Below, in pieces: positions 39,207 through 63,891 of a DNA stretch of 64,000 nt (within the stretch, counting starts at the first letter, position 1; each line of letters opens with the position of its first letter). The position numbers and the translations under genes are program-made. Origin of the DNA: Xenorhabdus ishibashii (GTDB lineage: Bacteria > Pseudomonadota > Gammaproteobacteria > Enterobacterales > Enterobacteriaceae); NCBI RefSeq assembly GCF_002632755.1, contig NZ_NJAK01000001.1:1860001-1924000 (forward strand). The letters run 5' to 3'. The notes below the pieces were generated by a model. It saw only the letters and a program-made list of their open reading frames with translations. It did no database searches and was not told the DNA's origin.

Positions 39207-39725
39207 TTAAGCAACAATCGGTGCGCGCCAGTCGTCAGCACCAGAAGTGCCCGCAGTAGTGTGTTCCCAGGTAATCTTACGATAAGAAAGAGATACACGA
39301 ACTAATTGGGTGAATTCTGATTTAGCTGGATCTTGGCAGTGTGGCATTTTGCAATCGATATCAACGATAGTTGCATCTTCCAGTTTTGTAGTAAAGAAAT
39401 GCTCTTGTTTACCTTCGATTGAAGTACGATACCATTTCAATTCTACAGTAGGCAGCATTTCGCCAGAAGCCAGTGCGTTGTACAGCAGAGGAACTGATTT
39501 ATTCAACGCAACGGTAAAGCGGAATGGTTTATGCGCACGCTGGCCAGAAGGTTGTCCTGACTGTGGATCAGTTGGGACAGTTACGATGTGGTCAAATTCT
39601 TGAACCAGCATTTCGTCTTCGTGACCCTGAACAAAGATATTACCTACGGATTCAGCAGTGAATGAGCCAGCGGTAATATGACCCTGAGTTTTACCATGGA
39701 TGGAAATATAACATGGAGTTGGCAT
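39207..39725 (-). CDS. hcp: T6SS tube protein Hcp (TssD)
   Basis: The 172-residue product is of the Hcp1 family. It starts MPTPCYISIHGKTQGHITAG, contains VQGHEDEMLVQEFDHIV and KPFRFTVALNKSVPLLYNAL, and ends with the conserved YRKITWEHTTAGTSGADDW. Hexameric rings stack into the inner tube propelled by the TssBC sheath and can carry effectors in the lumen. It is transcribed away from tssB as a monocistronic unit with AGGAT ahead of the ATG and a long stem-loop after the stop, fitting the high expression tube protein needs. Confidence 0.96.
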   Translation of the reverse strand: MPTPCYISIHGKTQGHITAGSFTAESVGNIFVQGHEDEMLVQEFDHIVTVPTDPQSGQPSGQRAHKPFRFTVALNKSVPLLYNALASGEMLPTVELKWYRTSIEGKQEHFFTTKLEDATIVDIDCKMPHCQDPAKSEFTQLVRVSLSYRKITWEHTTAGTSGADDWRAPIVA

Positions 39726-40655
39726 ATGAATATCCTATAAAAATTTACCAATATTAGTGTAAGTGTTCGTTCCTTACGTGATTATTCCATTTATTAACCA
39801 AATGCTAATTAGATGAAATTATCGCTTGCCAAACACTCGAAGCGAATAATAAAGCTGAAATTGTCTAATGCAAAGTTATTTGAAAAATGCAACATATGCT
39901 CTACTTCAATGACAAATAAAAATTTTATAATTATTGCCGTTGTAATATTTATAGCTGATTTTTTATAAACAATGAGTTTCTTTGACTGGTTTAAAAATAA
40001 TCTGTGATTTTTTTGTTTTCTTAACTGAATGATATTTATGGTATTTTTGTTTTTTACTTAGCTGTTTTAGTATGATCATTTGAAAAGTGTTATCTAGATC
40101 AAAAAAATGAAAATAACTTGAGTTTTTATGGTATTTAATTAATAAAAACAAAATAAAAAATGATATTGACGGTAATGATTAATAGTGAATTGAAAGGTTA
40201 TATTTTATTCAATTGAATATGAAAAATATTTCTTTTGATGCAAGTGATAGATAATTGGATCAAATGCTCTTAGAGAGTGTAAAACCAAATTTTTCTCTAT
40301 TTTTAGAGAGGAAAAATGTTTATAAATTGCTTTGCATTGGGATGTGTAGATTAAAAGCTTGAATAGAGGTATTTATCAATTTGTGTTTTGGCTTTACATC
40401 AAAAAAATAAAATGTCAAACTCGAACTTGACGATTTCTCGTATCGATGTTATTTCCACGATTGCATAGGGTATATCTGATTATTTAACTATATATTGATA
40501 TAAAACTATTCGTGCCTACAAATATAGTTGTCTTCTTTAGCCTATTTTTTAGGAAGATTTTCTGTATTTATTATATGGGTGAACATTGGAGTCATTCTCT
40601 CACCAATAATGGGTTGTTAGACAGTTCATGGTTGTATTAGCCAAAGGATTCAAAT
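39726..40655. promoter_or_regulatory. Long AT-rich divergent regulatory region between hcp and tssB
   Basis: These 930 bases carry no supportable gene; the only longer frame (minus strand, 39963-40151) is low-complexity Lys/Asn/Ile sequence. The region must contain promoters for both hcp and the tssB-tssM operon. TTGACG at 40427-40432 with TTATTT 16 bases later is a weak sigma-70 candidate. I saw no convincing sigma-54 site (TGGCAC-N5-TTGC). Confidence 0.5.
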
Positions 40656-41153
40656 ATGAGTAAGAATAGTCCAGGTAGCGTAGCTCCGAAAGAAAGAATT
40701 AATATTAAGTATGTTCCTAATACTGGTGACCAAACCGCAGAAGTTGAATTACCTCTGAATCTATTGGTTGTTGGTGATTTGAAAGGAAAAAGCGAAGATA
40801 CGCCAATTGAAGAGCGGCAGACAGTTTCTATCAATAAGAACAACTTTAATGCCGTAATGAATGAAGCGAACATCAACCTAACTTTTAACGTTCCTAATCG
40901 TCTCGATGAAAAAAGCGAAGAAGATCTGCCAGTTAATCTGGAAATAAAATCGCTGAATGATTTTTCACCGGATAATATCGCGAAGAAAGTACCTGAATTA
41001 AATAAACTTCTCGAACTGCGTGAGGCATTGGTTGCATTAAAAGGCCCATTGGGAAATATCCCAGCATTTCGTGCTCGTTTGCAGTCACTGCTGGATGATG
41101 AATCCGTTCGTGAGCAACTCCTGAAAGAACTTGAAATCGTCAATAAAAAATAA
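40656..41153 (+). CDS. tssB: T6SS contractile sheath small subunit TssB (VipA)
   Basis: The 165-residue protein shows the TssB pattern: GSVAPKERINIKYVPNTGDQ, VELPLNLLVVGDLKG, the N-rich middle and the helical ELNKLLELREALVALKGPLG tail. It forms the sheath with TssC that contracts to fire the Hcp tube and is disassembled by ClpV. It starts the long plus-strand T6SS operon; tssC follows after 20 bases. Confidence 0.96.
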   Translation: MSKNSPGSVAPKERINIKYVPNTGDQTAEVELPLNLLVVGDLKGKSEDTPIEERQTVSINKNNFNAVMNEANINLTFNVPNRLDEKSEEDLPVNLEIKSLNDFSPDNIAKKVPELNKLLELREALVALKGPLGNIPAFRARLQSLLDDESVREQLLKELEIVNKK

Positions 41154-49917: not shown

Positions 49918-52617
49918 ATGATCCAGATTGATCTGCCTACCCTTGTGAATCGTTTAAACCCGATGACCCGCCACGCACTGGAAGCTGCTGCGGCATCTTG
50001 CGTCAGCCAGCAACAACCTGAAATTACGGTTGCGCAACTACTGTTGCAAATGCTCGATACGCCACTCAGTGATGTGCGACTCATCCTAAGTAAAGCAGAT
50101 ATCGATAAAGATCTGCTGAAAGAACAGCTCGATCAGGTAATGACGCACCATCAATCGCTTGTACAGGCCTACCCCAATTTTTCCCCAATGCTGGTGGAAT
50201 GGTTGCAGGATAGCTGGCTGTTGGCGTCTACTGAGATGCAACATTCCGAACTACGCAGTGGCGTTATGCTGATTGCGTTGCTATTCAGCCCGTTGCGTTA
50301 TTTGGCACCACAAACTGCGCGTTTGCTGGCTGGTATCAACCGCGAATTAGTGCGCCAAAATTTTGCTGAATGGACGAATGGCTCGGCTGAACAGCCTTTT
50401 GCGGATAACAGTAATAAAGATGGGCAGGGCGTACATCCGGCAAACAGCGACAATTTGCTGGCTCGCTTTACCCAAAACATGACCGAACAGGCACGTCAGG
50501 GCAAGCTTGATCCGGTTTTGTGCCGCGATAATGAAATCGATCTGATGATCGACATTCTTTGCCGTCGCCGCAAAAACAACCCCATCGTCGTGGGTGAGGC
50601 GGGTGTTGGTAAAAGCGCCCTGATTGAAGGTTTGGCATTGCGCATTATTGACGATCGCGTACCGGAAAAATTGCGCAATAGTGAACTGATGACACTGGAT
50701 CTGGGAGCATTGCAGGCAGGGGCAGCAGTTAAAGGTGAATTTGAAAAACGTTTCAAAGGCATCATGGCTGAAATTAGCCAATCTTCAAAACCCATCATCC
50801 TGTTTATTGATGAAGCCCATACCCTGATCGGTGCGGGTAACCAGGCGGGGGGATTGGATATCTCCAATTTGCTGAAACCCGCTCTGGCTCGTGGTGAACT
50901 GAAAACCATCGCCGCCACCACATGGAGTGAATACAAGAAATATTTTGAAAAAGACGCCGCGCTGTCCCGTCGTTTCCAACTGGTGAAAGTCTCTGAACCG
51001 ACCGCAGATGAAGCGACCGTTATTATGCGCGGTTTGCGTGCTATCTACGAACAGGCGCATGGTGTGCTGATTGATGATGAAGCACTGAAAGCCTCTGCGG
51101 TATTGAGTGATCGCTATCTTTCCGGCCGCCAACTGCCAGACAAAGCCATTGATGTGCTGGATACTGCCTGTGCCCGTGTTGCCATTAACCTGACTTCACC
51201 ACCGCGCCAAATCTCCTCGTTAACCACCGAATTGCACCAGATGCAAATGGAAATCGACGTGTTGGAGAGGGAGCAACGCATGGGGCTGAATATCCATGTC
51301 GAGCGATTGGCGGAGTTACAAAACCAGCAACAAGAAGTTCAACAACAACTTACTGAGCTGGAAAATCGCTGGCAACAGCAGCAAGAATTGGTGAAGCAAA
51401 TTATCGAACTGCGCAGCCAATTATTGGCTGACGATATTGCCGAAAATGCGGACAAACATCAAGCGACCGGACAAGATGAAACCGCAGAAGAAGCAGAGGT
51501 AGCAGAGGTAGCAGAGGTAATAGAAGAAGCTGACGACGAACTATCCTTGATCGAAAAACTGGCGAATCTCAATACCCAGTTGGCAGAACTACAACAGCAG
51601 CAAACGCTGGTTTCCCCACATGTGGATAAGACGCAGATTGCCGCAGTGATTGCCGAGTGGACGGGGGTACCATTGAACCGTTTATCACAAAGTGAACTGT
51701 CCATCGTCACTGAATTACCTACTCACTTGGGACAAAGCATCAAGGGGCAGAAAATTGCGATCCAGTGCTTGCACAAACATTTACTGACAGCTCGTGCGGA
51801 TTTGCGCCGTCCGGGGCGTCCTCTTGGGGCATTCCTGTTAGTAGGACCAAGTGGTGTCGGTAAGACAGAAACCGTTCTGCAAATTGCGGAACTGATGTTT
51901 GGTGGCCGTCAATACCTGACCACCATCAATATGTCCGAGTTTCAGGAAAAACATACGGTTTCCCGTCTGATCGGTTCACCTCCAGGTTACGTGGGATACG
52001 GCGAGGGGGGTGTACTGACCGAAGCTATTCGTCAAAAACCGTATTCAGTTGTCTTGTTGGATGAAGTGGAAAAAGCTCATCCTGACGTATTGAACCTGTT
52101 CTATCAGGCTTTCGATAAAGGGGAACTGGCGGATGGGGAAGGGCGCATCATCGACTGTAAAAACGTCGTATTCTTCCTGACGTCAAATCTGGGTTATCAA
52201 ACCATCGTAGACAATGCTGAGCAGCCAGCACAGATCAACGACCTGCTTTACCCTGAATTGGCAGCATTCTTCAAACCAGCTCTGTTAGCGCGTATGGAGG
52301 TGATCCCTTACCTGCCGTTGGGGCATGAAACGCTGAAAACCATTATTCAGGGCAAACTGGCTCGGCTGGATACCCTGCTGACTCAACGTTTCAACGCAGA
52401 AGTCACTATTAGTGATGAGGTATCCGAAGAGATCCTGCAACGTGCTACCCGCGCGGAAAATGGTGCTCGCATGTTGGAGTCCATCATTGATGGCGCACTG
52501 CTACCGCCAGTGTCATTACTGTTATTGCAGAAAATGGCCGTGGGTACACCAATCAAGGCCATTCGCTTAACCGTGATTGAACATGAATTCCACGCAGAGG
52601 TTGAGGAGGCGGCATAA
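49918..52617 (+). CDS. clpV: T6SS sheath-recycling AAA+ ATPase ClpV (TssH)
   Basis: The 899-residue Hsp100 protein has an N-domain (residues 1-160), first AAA+ module with Walker A GEAGVGKSA near residue 226 and Walker B ILFIDEAHTLIG, a coiled-coil middle region rich in Gln, and second AAA+ module with Walker A GPSGVGKTE near residue 642 and VVLLDEVEKAH. It extracts TssC from contracted sheaths. The middle region carries an acidic insertion built on three perfect nine-base repeats (51493-51519). Its TAA shares one base with the next ATG. Confidence 0.96.
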   Translation: MIQIDLPTLVNRLNPMTRHALEAAAASCVSQQQPEITVAQLLLQMLDTPLSDVRLILSKADIDKDLLKEQLDQVMTHHQSLVQAYPNFSPMLVEWLQDSWLLASTEMQHSELRSGVMLIALLFSPLRYLAPQTARLLAGINRELVRQNFAEWTNGSAEQPFADNSNKDGQGVHPANSDNLLARFTQNMTEQARQGKLDPVLCRDNEIDLMIDILCRRRKNNPIVVGEAGVGKSALIEGLALRIIDDRVPEKLRNSELMTLDLGALQAGAAVKGEFEKRFKGIMAEISQSSKPIILFIDEAHTLIGAGNQAGGLDISNLLKPALARGELKTIAATTWSEYKKYFEKDAALSRRFQLVKVSEPTADEATVIMRGLRAIYEQAHGVLIDDEALKASAVLSDRYLSGRQLPDKAIDVLDTACARVAINLTSPPRQISSLTTELHQMQMEIDVLEREQRMGLNIHVERLAELQNQQQEVQQQLTELENRWQQQQELVKQIIELRSQLLADDIAENADKHQATGQDETAEEAEVAEVAEVIEEADDELSLIEKLANLNTQLAELQQQQTLVSPHVDKTQIAAVIAEWTGVPLNRLSQSELSIVTELPTHLGQSIKGQKIAIQCLHKHLLTARADLRRPGRPLGAFLLVGPSGVGKTETVLQIAELMFGGRQYLTTINMSEFQEKHTVSRLIGSPPGYVGYGEGGVLTEAIRQKPYSVVLLDEVEKAHPDVLNLFYQAFDKGELADGEGRIIDCKNVVFFLTSNLGYQTIVDNAEQPAQINDLLYPELAAFFKPALLARMEVIPYLPLGHETLKTIIQGKLARLDTLLTQRFNAEVTISDEVSEEILQRATRAENGARMLESIIDGALLPPVSLLLLQKMAVGTPIKAIRLTVIEHEFHAEVEEAA
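51493..51519 (+). repeat. Three tandem nine-base repeats inside clpV
   Basis: GCAGAGGTA occurs three times in a row in frame, encoding three Ala-Glu-Val units inside an acidic stretch between the coiled-coil middle domain and the second AAA+ module of ClpV. Copy number could vary by replication slippage without disturbing the frame. Confidence 0.85.
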
Positions 52618-53414
52618 TGAAACAGCGGCTGAAGAGCGCACTAGCGTTATTGGATAATGACACTGTAGAACAACTGGTTGACCATTTTTTGCAGGTCAGC
52701 CTTAGCTCGCGTTTTGATGCCCTGTTGGTTTTTCTGCTGAACATCAACGAAAACAGGTTGGAATGCTACAACTTACCGGAACCTCAACAAACCAGTTCGC
52801 GCCGGTTGCAAGTGGACATTAATGACGTCAATAACCCGTTGATACAGGTATTACGTAAGGGAGCCCCAACTGTTTGGGATTCCCTTAATCACGGGGCACG
52901 CATTGACGATCCACATTTCCGCACATTTATTGCGGAACTGCCGCATAACTGTGGGTTGTACGGCATTCCCCTGTTTGACTGCAATGGACAGGCTTGTGGT
53001 GTGATCGCTATCTTTGCCGAAAATGTCCACCCTTTCACCAACAATGAAAACATGTTCGGTATCTATTGCCATGTCATGCAGCACCGCCTGAAGAAATTGC
53101 AGGAACTCGAACAACTGCGCGGACAGTTACGCCAAATCCGTCAGGTATTTCAGGTTCAACGCCAAAAAGAAAAACAATTGGATGAATTGCTTGCTTCCCT
53201 GAGTGCATCGAAAAAACCAGCGGCGGTCAGCAGTATCTCCGTAGATTACAGTTATATCGATAATCTGCCAAAGGCCATAGAAGAATTTGAAAGTGCCGTG
53301 TTGATTCAACGTCAGCGTCAGTTTGGTAACGACACCAGATTGATTGCACAAAGTCTGGGCATTCCCCAGCGGTCGTTGGTTTACAAACTGGCTAAGTACG
53401 GGTGTAGATTATGA
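52617..53414 (+). CDS. VasH-like regulator lacking the AAA+ sigma-54 activation domain
   Basis: The 265-residue product lies where vasH lies in the V. cholerae T6SS cluster. It has a GAF-like N-terminal part (about residues 30-155: SLSSRFDALLVFLLNINENR, NCGLYGIPLFDCNGQACGVI) and a coiled coil (residues 160-200). The VasH-type tail follows (LPKAIEEFESAVLIQRQRQF) with a Fis-like helix-turn-helix (TRLIAQSLGIPQRSLVYKLA). Full-length VasH-type enhancer-binding proteins have about 500-530 residues with a central AAA+ domain including Walker A and GAFTGA; none of these motifs is present. The frame is intact and coupled to clpV by overlap, so it may act as a DNA-binding protein without sigma-54 activation. 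Confidence 0.85.
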   Translation: MKQRLKSALALLDNDTVEQLVDHFLQVSLSSRFDALLVFLLNINENRLECYNLPEPQQTSSRRLQVDINDVNNPLIQVLRKGAPTVWDSLNHGARIDDPHFRTFIAELPHNCGLYGIPLFDCNGQACGVIAIFAENVHPFTNNENMFGIYCHVMQHRLKKLQELEQLRGQLRQIRQVFQVQRQKEKQLDELLASLSASKKPAAVSSISVDYSYIDNLPKAIEEFESAVLIQRQRQFGNDTRLIAQSLGIPQRSLVYKLAKYGCRL

Positions 53415-54079
53415 ATATTGTTTTAATTATCAGTTCATTACTCGCTTCATTGACAGGGAACCTCAAGCTTGCAGAAGTGGCAGAACCAAAGGAAGTGGTT
53501 GCGGTAAAGGAAGAGCAAAATTTAGATGAACTGCATAAATGCCGTTTTGAGCCGTCTCCTCTTATTCGGCTGGCATGTTATGACAGAGCGTTGAATAACC
53601 TCAAATTTAAAACTGTGCATATCCCCATCGAAAATATGGGGCCTTTATGGCGACAAGCGATGGAACAGGAGATGAAACGCACTGATTACTCTACCAGTTT
53701 CATTGTGACGCAGGGAGAGAACGGTGCGGCACCGATTATCTTGACCACGCCCGCGATTGGAGTACCACCTCCACGTCCCGTGTTAATGCTGAGTTGCATT
53801 GACAGTATCACCCGCTTGCAGGTGGCACTGCCCAAACCCGTGGAGTCAGGGGTTGTCACTGTGGCAACAGACAGAACCGAGTACCGTACAGAATGGTTCG
53901 TGCGGGAGCAGGGTTATTTGTGGGAATCCAGCCGTGGCTTACCGGGCATTGAGGAAATCAAACGCCTGATGGACAACGATCGGATGAGCATTACGGGCAG
54001 TAATGGTAACCAGATAACCTTTAACATTTCTCAGTTGGAGCAGGCAGCGAAGCCATTACGTGCTGCTTGCCGTTGGTAA
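53411..54079 (+). CDS. vasI: T6SS-associated protein VasI (TagO-like)
   Basis: The 222-residue product starts with a probable signal segment (MNIVLIISSLLASLTGNLKL) and contains CRFEPSPLIRLACYDRALNN, the Cys-pair pattern of VasI/TagO family proteins, then LMLSCIDSITRLQVALPKP and WFVREQGYLWESSRGLPGIE. The family accompanies T6SS clusters and is presumed periplasmic; its precise role is unsettled. It overlaps the preceding gene by four bases (ATGA). Confidence 0.88.
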   Translation: MNIVLIISSLLASLTGNLKLAEVAEPKEVVAVKEEQNLDELHKCRFEPSPLIRLACYDRALNNLKFKTVHIPIENMGPLWRQAMEQEMKRTDYSTSFIVTQGENGAAPIILTTPAIGVPPPRPVLMLSCIDSITRLQVALPKPVESGVVTVATDRTEYRTEWFVREQGYLWESSRGLPGIEEIKRLMDNDRMSITGSNGNQITFNISQLEQAAKPLRAACRW

Positions 54080-60904: not shown

Positions 60905-62351
60905 ATGAAAAGTGGATTACGTTTTACCTGCCGTATACCAGCCCCAGCCGGAAACCGCGCATGGGGTAGATACGATTTATCAGGTACGGTTAGGCGTCGG
61001 CATGAGTCCGCAGCGCAGTTTGCACAAAGATTTCAACCCGGAGAACCCGCGCTATCACCTCTCCCATATGCACAGCAGCGAAGGCTTTCGTGACTTCGGC
61101 AGCCAGACCCCTTACACCGTGTTTGAAAGTTACGGACGCTTCCAGAAAGATGCCGCCGCCAAACCATTTTTAAAATACCGGCAGGAAGCACTGGACAACC
61201 AGAAACAGACGGGCAGCGGTAGCAGTAACTGCATCAAACTGATGCCGGGCAAAATCTTCGAGATAAAAAATCATCCCCATAAACTGCTTAATGTTCGCTG
61301 GCAGGTAGTCGGTATCAGCCACCACGGGCGTTGCCCGCAGGCATTGGGAAATGATGCCGGTGAAGGCACCACGCTTTCCAACCAGTTCAGTTTTATTTCC
61401 GGTCTGGATGATTACCGCCCGCCTTTCCACTACAAACCGCTGGCAGATGGCGATGAAACCGCCATCGTGGTCGGCCCGGAAGGTGAGGAAATCTTCGTTA
61501 ATAAAGACGGGGCGATTAAAGTCCATTTTCACTGGAACCGCTATGACCAACCCGATGATAGCGCGTCGTGCTGGGTGCGGGTGGCACAGGGCTGGAACGG
61601 TAACGGCTTTGGTTTTATGGCGATACCGCGTATCGGGCAGGAGGTGATTATCTCTTACCTGAACGGCGATATCGACCGCCCCATCGTCACTGGCTGTGTC
61701 TATAACGGCCTGAACCGCCCGCCACTGGATTTACCGGCCCAAAAAACTCGTACCACGTTTAAAACCAAAACCCACAAAGGCAAAGGCTTTAACGAACTGC
61801 GCTTTGAGGATGCGAAAGACAGCGAAGAAATCTATCTCCACGGCCAGAAAGACCTGACTGCCCATATCGAAAATGATGCCTACTGGCACATCAAACATGA
61901 CCAGAAGAGCCGCATCGATAACAACCGTTACCACGATATCCGCGCCGATGACCATCATCAGGTCGCCGGTTCGCGCAAAATCACCACCGAAGGGGATGTC
62001 TCCCACCGGATTGCCGGCAGCCAGCATATCCAGACCGGCGACGCGACTGTGATTGACAGCGGACAGGAAATCCATCTGAAAAGCGGCGGCAAAGTGGTGC
62101 TGGAAGCGGCAGCCGAAATCACCCTGAAAGTGGGCGGCAGTTTTCTGAAAGTCACACCGGGCGGCATTCTCTGCTCACCGATTAATGTTGGACAAGGTTC
62201 AGGCGGCAGCGGGCGCGGGGTTTCACTGCAATTACCGGAAGGCGTGGAGCCATTGCCGGAGGTGGAATTTCCGGTCAAAAAATATTGTGCATTGCAGGCT
62301 CAGGAGAATGCAGCCTGGGTGATTAAAGCCCCGCAGGGAGGACAGTCATGA
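60905..62351 (+). pseudogene. vgrG: VgrG (TssI) with an out-of-frame deletion of the N-terminal hub
   Basis: The ATG at 60905, with AAGGA just ahead, starts MKSGLRFTCRI like a VgrG, but that frame leaves VgrG similarity at once and stops at 61093. VgrG sequence continues in the next frame from about 60920: VLPAVYQPQPETAHGVDTIY, SYGRFQKDAAAKPFLKYRQE, then the gp5-like OB-fold (GEEIFVNKDGAIKVHFHWNR, GFMAIPRIGQEVIISYLNGD) and the needle. A GTG at 60912 would give 479 residues without most of the gp27-like domain; full VgrGs exceed 600. It is probably non-functional as a spike unless frameshifting or partial assembly rescues it. Confidence 0.8.
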
Positions 62352-62955: not shown

Positions 62956-63891
62956 GTGGAGGATGAGAAGAGCGGAAAAGTGAAGGTGGTTGGTTACCAT
63001 ACCCGCGAAGGAAGTGGTATGGATACGGTTAAAGTGCGTCACGTGAAGCAAACCGCACCGGGAACATACGAATTTCGGGAGGATGGCGCGGATTCGCCTA
63101 TACTGGTCTGGTACACTAACGCGTCGTCAATGTATAAGGCATTATCACCGCAGGAATTACCTCAATATTTTAACCAGCGTGGTACGCCAATCAATGTCAA
63201 CACTGTGCCGCTTGATGATCCGAGCATGACCGGTCAAACACCCGGCCTGGAAATCCCAGAGCAGCCAACGTGGCGGGACGGTGTGATGGGTAACCCGCAG
63301 CAAGATCCGAATGAAATGGCGGGGAACAAAACAGAAACGCCAATATCGGATGGAACAGACCGCGGGCCAACGAAGACGACTACACCGGTACAGGAGAGTG
63401 ATTTCCGAGATTATATTCTGATTTTCCCGATTGAGGGCGTGCCGGCGGTTTATGTTTATTTAAGCTGTCCATATGGTGGAACGGAAAAAGGTAAATACAG
63501 TGGCCGCTCTTATGACCCAACTAAAGCAGGTGGTCCTATTCAGGATTTAGATTGGAGAAATATTGAAATTACACAAGAAGGTATTGACAAAGTTAAACTG
63601 CATACTAGCAGATTTGATGAATCTATTGAAAACCAAATCATGATTGAACGCTTAGAGAAAATTCTAGCTGGAGAAATTACAATAACTGATTACGATAAGC
63701 GATTTTATACACATGAAACAAGAGAGCTAGAGCGTTATAGAGCTTTAGGTGTTCCTGATGGAGCTAATGATCTTATTACATGGAATAATACGCATACAGC
63801 TACACTAGAAGACTATAAGATCAATGAAAAGATAGATTCTTTGTATACTCCTGAAGCTATTGCAATAGCTGCAGAACATGAAGACTATTAA
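62956..63891 (+). CDS. T6SS effector with S-type pyocin domain and polymorphic toxin tip
   Basis: The 311-residue frame (GTG at 62956; an ATG at 63019 has a better AAGGAAG site) has an S-type-pyocin-like domain over about residues 25-170 (VKVRHVKQTAPGTYEFREDG, RDYILIFPIEGVPAVYVYLS). A C-terminal toxin region over residues 170-311 contains IVDL-like PIQDLDW, then YTHETRELERYRALGVPDG and WNNTHTATLEDY. Its His/Glu-rich motifs look catalytic, but I cannot name the toxin family. The same frame is open back to 62773 with plausible protein (GTVSLGALKRAFGADS) but no start codon, so the true N-terminus was probably joined to the upstream gene. The toxin tip from about 63530 is clearly AT-rich. Confidence 0.75.
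   Translation: MEDEKSGKVKVVGYHTREGSGMDTVKVRHVKQTAPGTYEFREDGADSPILVWYTNASSMYKALSPQELPQYFNQRGTPINVNTVPLDDPSMTGQTPGLEIPEQPTWRDGVMGNPQQDPNEMAGNKTETPISDGTDRGPTKTTTPVQESDFRDYILIFPIEGVPAVYVYLSCPYGGTEKGKYSGRSYDPTKAGGPIQDLDWRNIEITQEGIDKVKLHTSRFDESIENQIMIERLEKILAGEITITDYDKRFYTHETRELERYRALGVPDGANDLITWNNTHTATLEDYKINEKIDSLYTPEAIAIAAEHEDY

Follow-up and report, generated by a model that had tools for sequence, protein, structure and literature searches.

A type VI secretion system (T6SS) cluster lies in a 64,000-nucleotide stretch of the Xenorhabdus ishibashii genome (contig NZ_NJAK01000001.1, positions 1,860,001 to 1,924,000; hereafter the window). In the place of vasH, the cluster carries an intact reading frame for a 265-aa VasH homologue that lacks the AAA+ domain (52617..53414, plus strand). 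Judging from sequence comparisons, we consider it fairly probable (roughly 0.6) that this protein is an ancient, functional VasH derivative that now acts as a sigma-54-independent one-component transcription regulator, with the hcp promoter as its likeliest target.

Domain architecture of the short VasH homologue

The gene is flanked upstream by clpV (tssH; 49918..52617) and downstream by vasI (53411..54079), all on the plus strand. Residues 1 to 155 (52617..53081) were assigned to a GAF-fold domain by an AlphaFold2 (AF2) model, VIA-align, and hhalign, and this domain is homologous to the VasH N terminus. A long helix and probable coiled coil at residues 146 to 197 (53052..53207; AF2 model and hhalign) leads to a Fis-type helix-turn-helix (HTH) at residues 217 to 260 (53265..53396), which is matched by HTH_8 and forms three helices in the AF2 model. 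HTH_8 was matched in 34/34 members of the short family, in which the HTH has an R-(T/S)-L core with an invariant R252; the same arginine is present in VasH. The VIA-align list for the short protein was filled by matches to the GAF part and contained no HTH or NtrC structure. A sequence profile matched NtrC-type HTH chains at E values of 0.017 to 0.036, but also a titin chain at 0.0084.

Homology to VasH extends to both ends of the protein. Residues 1 to 195 were aligned by hhalign to the VasH N terminus (probability 99.2, E = 7.7e-20), with 31% identity to the full-length VasH profile over 191 aligned columns; the alignment stops before the HTH. When 394 genomes of the order were searched with the short-family profile, 236 were matched, mostly by HTH-only matches to other activators, and a full-length match to a short open frame was found in four. 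Full-length VasH frames (513 to 536 aa) each gave two matches, an earlier one covering model positions 1 to ~197 and a later one beginning at 97 to 208 and ending at 261 to 262 (the C-terminal HTH). In a control VasH row, residue 198 is the first of PF00158 and residue 447 the last of the AAA+ lid, so the lost part is, by alignment, almost exactly the AAA+ domain (VasH residues ~198 to 447). The long helix of the short protein stops at about the AAA+ start of that one row.

Consistent with this, PF00158 (the AAA+ sigma-54 interaction domain) was found neither in the window protein nor among the domain families of its short homologues, while it was present in 10/10 full-length VasH controls. 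The Walker A pattern occurred in 0/43 short proteins, compared with 18/18 parsed full-length VasH proteins (of 20 loci). The GAFTGA-type loop of VasH, GAFSGA, is invariant in 10/10 controls and absent from the window protein. The first-pass annotation of this DNA had described a gene of about half the normal length, with an intact frame, that keeps the place of vasH, its GAF-like sensor, and its Fis-type tail while lacking AAA+, Walker A, and GAFTGA; every part of this description stood, including under the profile search for an AAA+ domain, which had been posed beforehand as a possible refutation and found none. Because it lacks the AAA+ domain, the short protein is predicted to be unable to remodel sigma-54 polymerase, and activation of sigma-54 promoters by the known mechanism would be impossible, as had been proposed.

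Conservation of the short form and the genomic complement of activators

The AAA+-less state is old and conserved in its lineage and is no peculiarity of one strain. All 33 homologues retrieved are 260 to 284 aa long, in a search with a length filter through which full-length VasH could not appear; they come from Xenorhabdus, Photorhabdus, Yersinia, Serratia, Chania, Entomohabitans, an Erwiniaceae bacterium, and others. The order clpV/short gene/vasI is kept in 42/42 named loci from six genera (Xenorhabdus, Photorhabdus, Yersinia, Serratia, Edaphovirga, and Entomohabitans) and one metagenome-assembled genome. Within the genus of the window, the short form is found in 29 of 30 genomes, with no match in the remaining one (G443). 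Sister species had been named as the place to look for full-length orthologues; in these loci and genomes, the short form was found instead. In the family sample, 52/392 genomes were matched at E <= 1e-8, comprising 26 short, 24 long, and 2 broken cases, where the long cases are open frames of 503 to 684 aa that were taken as full-length VasH, with the presence of AAA+ assumed for each.

A tree of ClpV (37 chosen rows, 19 full and 18 drawn from the 43 short ones available; quick method, LG+G4, midpoint root) places the short/full split as one change with an SH-aLRT support of 99. With the f21/f10 full-length rows chosen as the outgroup, a single loss of AAA+ would suffice to explain this tree.

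The short protein is under purifying selection: the median dN/dS is 0.11 (0.05 to 0.17) across the 55 pairs formed by 11 Xenorhabdus sequences. It is extremely unlikely that the gene is a decaying vasH remnant produced by pseudogenization, deletion, or misassembly. The catalytic domain has indeed been lost, and broken vasH genes do exist beside broken clpV genes in two genomes (G731 and G786), but the short gene combines an intact frame and a uniform length (33/33) with a conserved gene order (42/42) and a dN/dS of ~0.11. Homologue lengths, synteny, the 29/30 genomes, and dN/dS together rule out a strain-specific deletion or assembly artifact. In both broken cases clpV is also split or shortened, unlike the tidy short form. 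These two loci (L241 in G731 and L242 in G786) appear as decaying T6SS clusters, with vasH broken inside or before AAA+.

By domain, dN/dS is 0.12 for the GAF domain, 0.08 for the linker, and 0.074 for the HTH. The HTH is thus the domain under the strongest constraint, and this, together with the HTH_8 match throughout the short family, makes it improbable that the protein has ceased to be a transcription factor and instead serves the T6SS as an accessory factor in the cytoplasm, bound to Hcp or a different component. Such a role would find precedent in Vibrio cholerae, where, according to one report (PMC9972734), the VasH GAF domain binds Hcp and hcp transcription is lowered when Hcp accumulates.

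The genome of the window encodes rpoN and has nine matches to PF00158. Five are strong (E <= 3.2e-62) and were identified as GlrR, NtrC, PrpR, TyrR, and PspF, all five exceeding the respective NCBIfam cutoffs; the other four are weak (E = 4e-7 to 1e-4) and fall in frames of 765 to 900 aa, which we take to be Clp-type ATPases. Full-length VasH was not found in this genome, where the short-family profile matches only the window gene. A hidden second VasH was likewise sought with PF00158, NCBIfam, and the family profile, and none was recovered. In Entomohabitans, a sigma-54 activator ~5 kb beyond hcp had no NCBIfam equivalog above the cutoff and is not a VasH. Elsewhere in the genome of the window, contig C2 (~108657 to 116650) carries another hcp together with a Clp-like frame of 900 aa, which suggests that a second T6SS exists and has no relative of VasH.

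With rpoN and five activators present, the short protein might act as a coregulator that binds another sigma-54 activator through its GAF domain or long helix. We regard this as very unlikely, given that none of the five is a VasH and that an hcp without a sigma-54 box (see below) offers no obvious sigma-54 target.

Two kinds of hcp promoter

In the window, hcp (39207..39725, minus strand; PF05638 at C1:1899261-1899644) is divergent from tssB (40656..41153, plus strand; TIGR03358), the first gene of the main operon. The same arrangement is seen in the short lineage across 522 to 1,065 bp in 28 regions with both genes parsed, the window having 930 bp. Promoters were scored with a sigma-54 matrix made by hand from the consensus, using a box cutoff of >=12.5 and the hcp promoters of full-length VasH loci as a positive control. 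Counts refer to distinct sequences, with duplicates merged. Rows without a parsed start or with too little sequence were left out (1/39 main short, 1/10 second short, and 11/51 full-VasH loci); among the omitted full loci, L134, L135, L136, and L138 have boxes of 12.6 to 15.2 and L227 has one of 15.2, while L220 has none (8.2).

The hcp promoters of full-VasH loci contain a sigma-54 box, TGGCAYR-N4-TTGCW, mostly 56 to 90 bp before the ATG. A box at or above the cutoff was present in 38/40 full-VasH promoters versus 1/42 short-form promoters, the latter being marginal. A perfect GCAA-N4-TTGC palindrome was present in 37/40 versus 0/42. These palindromes lie upstream of the boxes, and many promoters have a pair 71 to 72 bp apart (L134 to L163 and L210 to L231). 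GCAA-N4-TTGC is probably a VasH enhancer motif and occurs across several families. Allowing one mismatch did not uncover the palindrome in the short lineage, where 26 promoters held 2 such sites versus 5.3 expected. No word common to both promoter groups emerged: 13 words of nine letters were present in 70% or more of the full promoters, and the commonest words in short promoters were only AT rich.

The contrast in boxes and palindromes was seen first in an initial set and then repeated on further genomes of the window's own family. There, a box was found in 19/21 full-VasH hcp loci, 18 of which also have palindromes, the 19th having only 110 bp of upstream sequence. Among the short-form loci, 0/14 parsed (of 20) reached 12.5, with a perfect palindrome in none; 3 of these 14 duplicate earlier sequences.

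Across the whole hcp-tssB interval on both strands, the best sigma-54 score in the window was 9.0, and no AAA+-less interval exceeded 12.6. The first-pass annotation had likewise seen no clear sigma-54 site between hcp and tssB and had taken this to agree with rewired control, and the promoter counts agree with that reading. Its suggestion that the short protein is a competing DNA binder was not supported: the genome has no full-length VasH partner, and its hcp promoter lacks a palindrome of the VasH type. In full-VasH genomes, the 900 bp upstream of tssB scored at most 12.4, generally no better than shuffled sequence; the promoter comparison therefore rests on hcp.

In place of the box, the hcp promoter of the window has a sigma-70-like core, with a -10 hexamer TATTAT (39846..39851, minus strand), 126 bp before the ATG, and a weak -35-like hexamer TTTGCA (39869..39874, minus strand) at a 17-bp spacing. 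A conserved element, GCAATAATTATAA (39925..39937, minus strand), lies 86 bp upstream of the -10 hexamer and is the sole exact match to GCAANWATTATAA within the window. Allowing up to two mismatches on the same strand, GCAANWATTATAA was found in 38/42 short-form versus 0/40 full-VasH distinct hcp promoters, a descriptive comparison, since short-form promoters were used to define the element. An earlier both-strand count gave 33/36 short loci versus 11.6 expected from dinucleotide-matched random sequence and 1/44 full loci versus 7.2 expected. The short promoters were divided into two sets (33 and 9 distinct promoters) after a distant genus (g192) and genome G691 were seen to differ; counted apart, these contain the box in 1/33 and 0/9, the palindrome in none of either, and the element in 32/33 and 6/9. 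The larger set was labeled tssB adjacent, which was seen for part of its loci only and is probably untrue for G511.

The spacing from element to -10 hexamer is 86 or 87 bp in 34/38 rows (four of them duplicates), while the distance to the ATG varies. The -10 words at that spacing are TATTAT, TATAGT, and once TATATT; as the best word was picked within 70 to 105 bp, a chance fit would be possible at two of 35 places, and the rows share ancestry. In Yersinia similis the spacing is 76 bp, one helical turn shorter. In Photorhabdus thracensis and Photorhabdus asymbiotica another site was picked automatically, and alignment on the -10 hexamer restores 86 bp, at the cost of two and more mismatches. 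G691 has just a poor element match, at 77 bp. In Xenorhabdus koppenhoeferi (L090), an insertion of ~130 bp separates the conserved promoter from hcp, with the 86-bp spacing kept.

The element is AT rich, holds a TATAAT-like core, and retains the GCAA half of the palindrome. The kept half-site suggests that DNA recognition may be partly continuous with that of VasH. On a different reading, which we hold to be somewhat unlikely, the GAF sensor was kept and hcp ceased to be a target, so that the HTH serves other promoters and the element is the site of another regulator or of a nucleoid protein. The loss of the VasH-type palindrome from hcp promoters, the AT-rich composition of the new element, and the resemblance of its core to a -10 hexamer all favor this reading, and joint inheritance of one locus could explain why protein and element occur together. 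Set against it are that co-occurrence itself (38/42 versus 0/40, for an element defined on short-form promoters), the retained GCAA half, and the lack of a second exact copy in the window.

Proposed regulation and its relation to known systems

We propose that the whole AAA+ domain was lost, most simply once, in an ancestor of an enterobacterial T6SS lineage. The GAF domain would sense a T6SS-linked signal, possibly Hcp itself; the reported binding of Hcp by the GAF domain of V. cholerae VasH makes feedback from Hcp a natural candidate. The long helix would dimerize the protein, and the Fis-type HTH may bind DNA at the conserved GCAA-containing element of the hcp promoter. Regulation, whether activating or repressing, would then proceed through ordinary contact or occlusion at a sigma-70-like promoter and not through ATP-driven remodeling. 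The center of the element lies ~90 bp upstream of the expected hcp start, a position compatible with class I type contact. More tentatively, and with less than even odds, excision of AAA+ would have yielded a one-component sigma-70 regulator whose GAF domain still reads Hcp and whose HTH still reads the GCAA half-site, with the hcp promoter rebuilt.

Several observations weigh against a sigma-54-independent regulator acting at hcp. Entomohabitans and Edaphovirga retain marginal sigma-54-like words (12.6 and 12.3) at -114 and -118, respectively. The hcp promoters of g192 are spaced otherwise (element at ~-172 and -10 hexamer at ~-94, or ~78 bp), and in G523, where hcp and the short gene (L195) are 13.5 kb apart, the hcp promoter shows no recognizable element (4 mismatches). 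Taken alone, -35/-10 scores do not exceed those of shuffled sequence in the Xenorhabdus promoters, which are AT rich (p ~0.3 to 0.8). Because single scores are not significant, the case for a sigma-70-like core rests on conserved position. The element could also serve another regulator or be a second promoter. Finally, hcp adjoins tssB in short-form clusters and not in the controls, where an Hcp match within the ~4 kb before tssB was seen in 1/20 regions and is distant (32%); the promoter difference may therefore stem from hcp relocation and not from domain loss.

Other T6SS genes of the window include a short vgrG beside the cluster (60912-62351, GTG start, 479 aa), whose match to the VgrG model starts only at profile position 189. 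It is without the N-terminal part, and no open reading frame just upstream resembled the missing piece. The 311-aa frame that follows (62956-63891) is, by position, likely a T6SS cargo or effector gene.

VasH (VCA0117-type) has in common with the short protein the position between clpV and vasI, the N-terminal domain, and the Fis-type HTH. The short protein differs in lacking AAA+, Walker A, and GAFSGA, and its hcp promoter lacks both the sigma-54 box and GCAA-N4-TTGC. Response regulators of the RegA/PrrA/ActR type also join a sensor to a Fis-type HTH without AAA+, and Fis consists of the HTH alone; these have a receiver or no sensor instead of a GAF domain and differ in ancestry and genomic place. 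TyrR is a GAFTGA-less enhancer-binding protein at sigma-70 promoters. Further bacterial enhancer-binding proteins of this kind, as described in PMC10274813, are NtrC of Caulobacter and Rhodobacter capsulatus and VspR of V. cholerae. As far as that account goes, they resemble the short protein in descent and in sigma-54-independent regulation. They are understood to keep AAA+, with only the loop gone, whereas the whole domain is gone from the short protein and its promoter differs too. RovC, a 247-aa hexameric activator of Yersinia T6SS4 encoded oppositely beside its cluster, is likewise AAA+ free at an enterobacterial T6SS; compared by description only, it is not presented as VasH derived in the portion of the report available (PMC7535981). 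Searches of an open-access library turned up no paper on the short form, nor any on a lineage that combines complete AAA+ loss with an altered promoter.

The label "type VI secretion system sigma-54 dependent transcriptional regulator" carried by one short homologue (P0003) is thus misleading for this lineage. Here the motor has been lost lineage-wide, selection has preserved the sensor and DNA-binding domain, and related lineages of one secretion system differ jointly in the protein and its likely target promoter. VasH with its box and palindrome and the short protein with its sigma-70-like core and element form a natural pair for studying a change of circuit from sigma-54 to sigma-70. If the tentative proposal of a rebuilt hcp promoter is true, a sigma-70 core and one site ~90 bp upstream would provide the same feedback with a different polymerase throughout the lineage.

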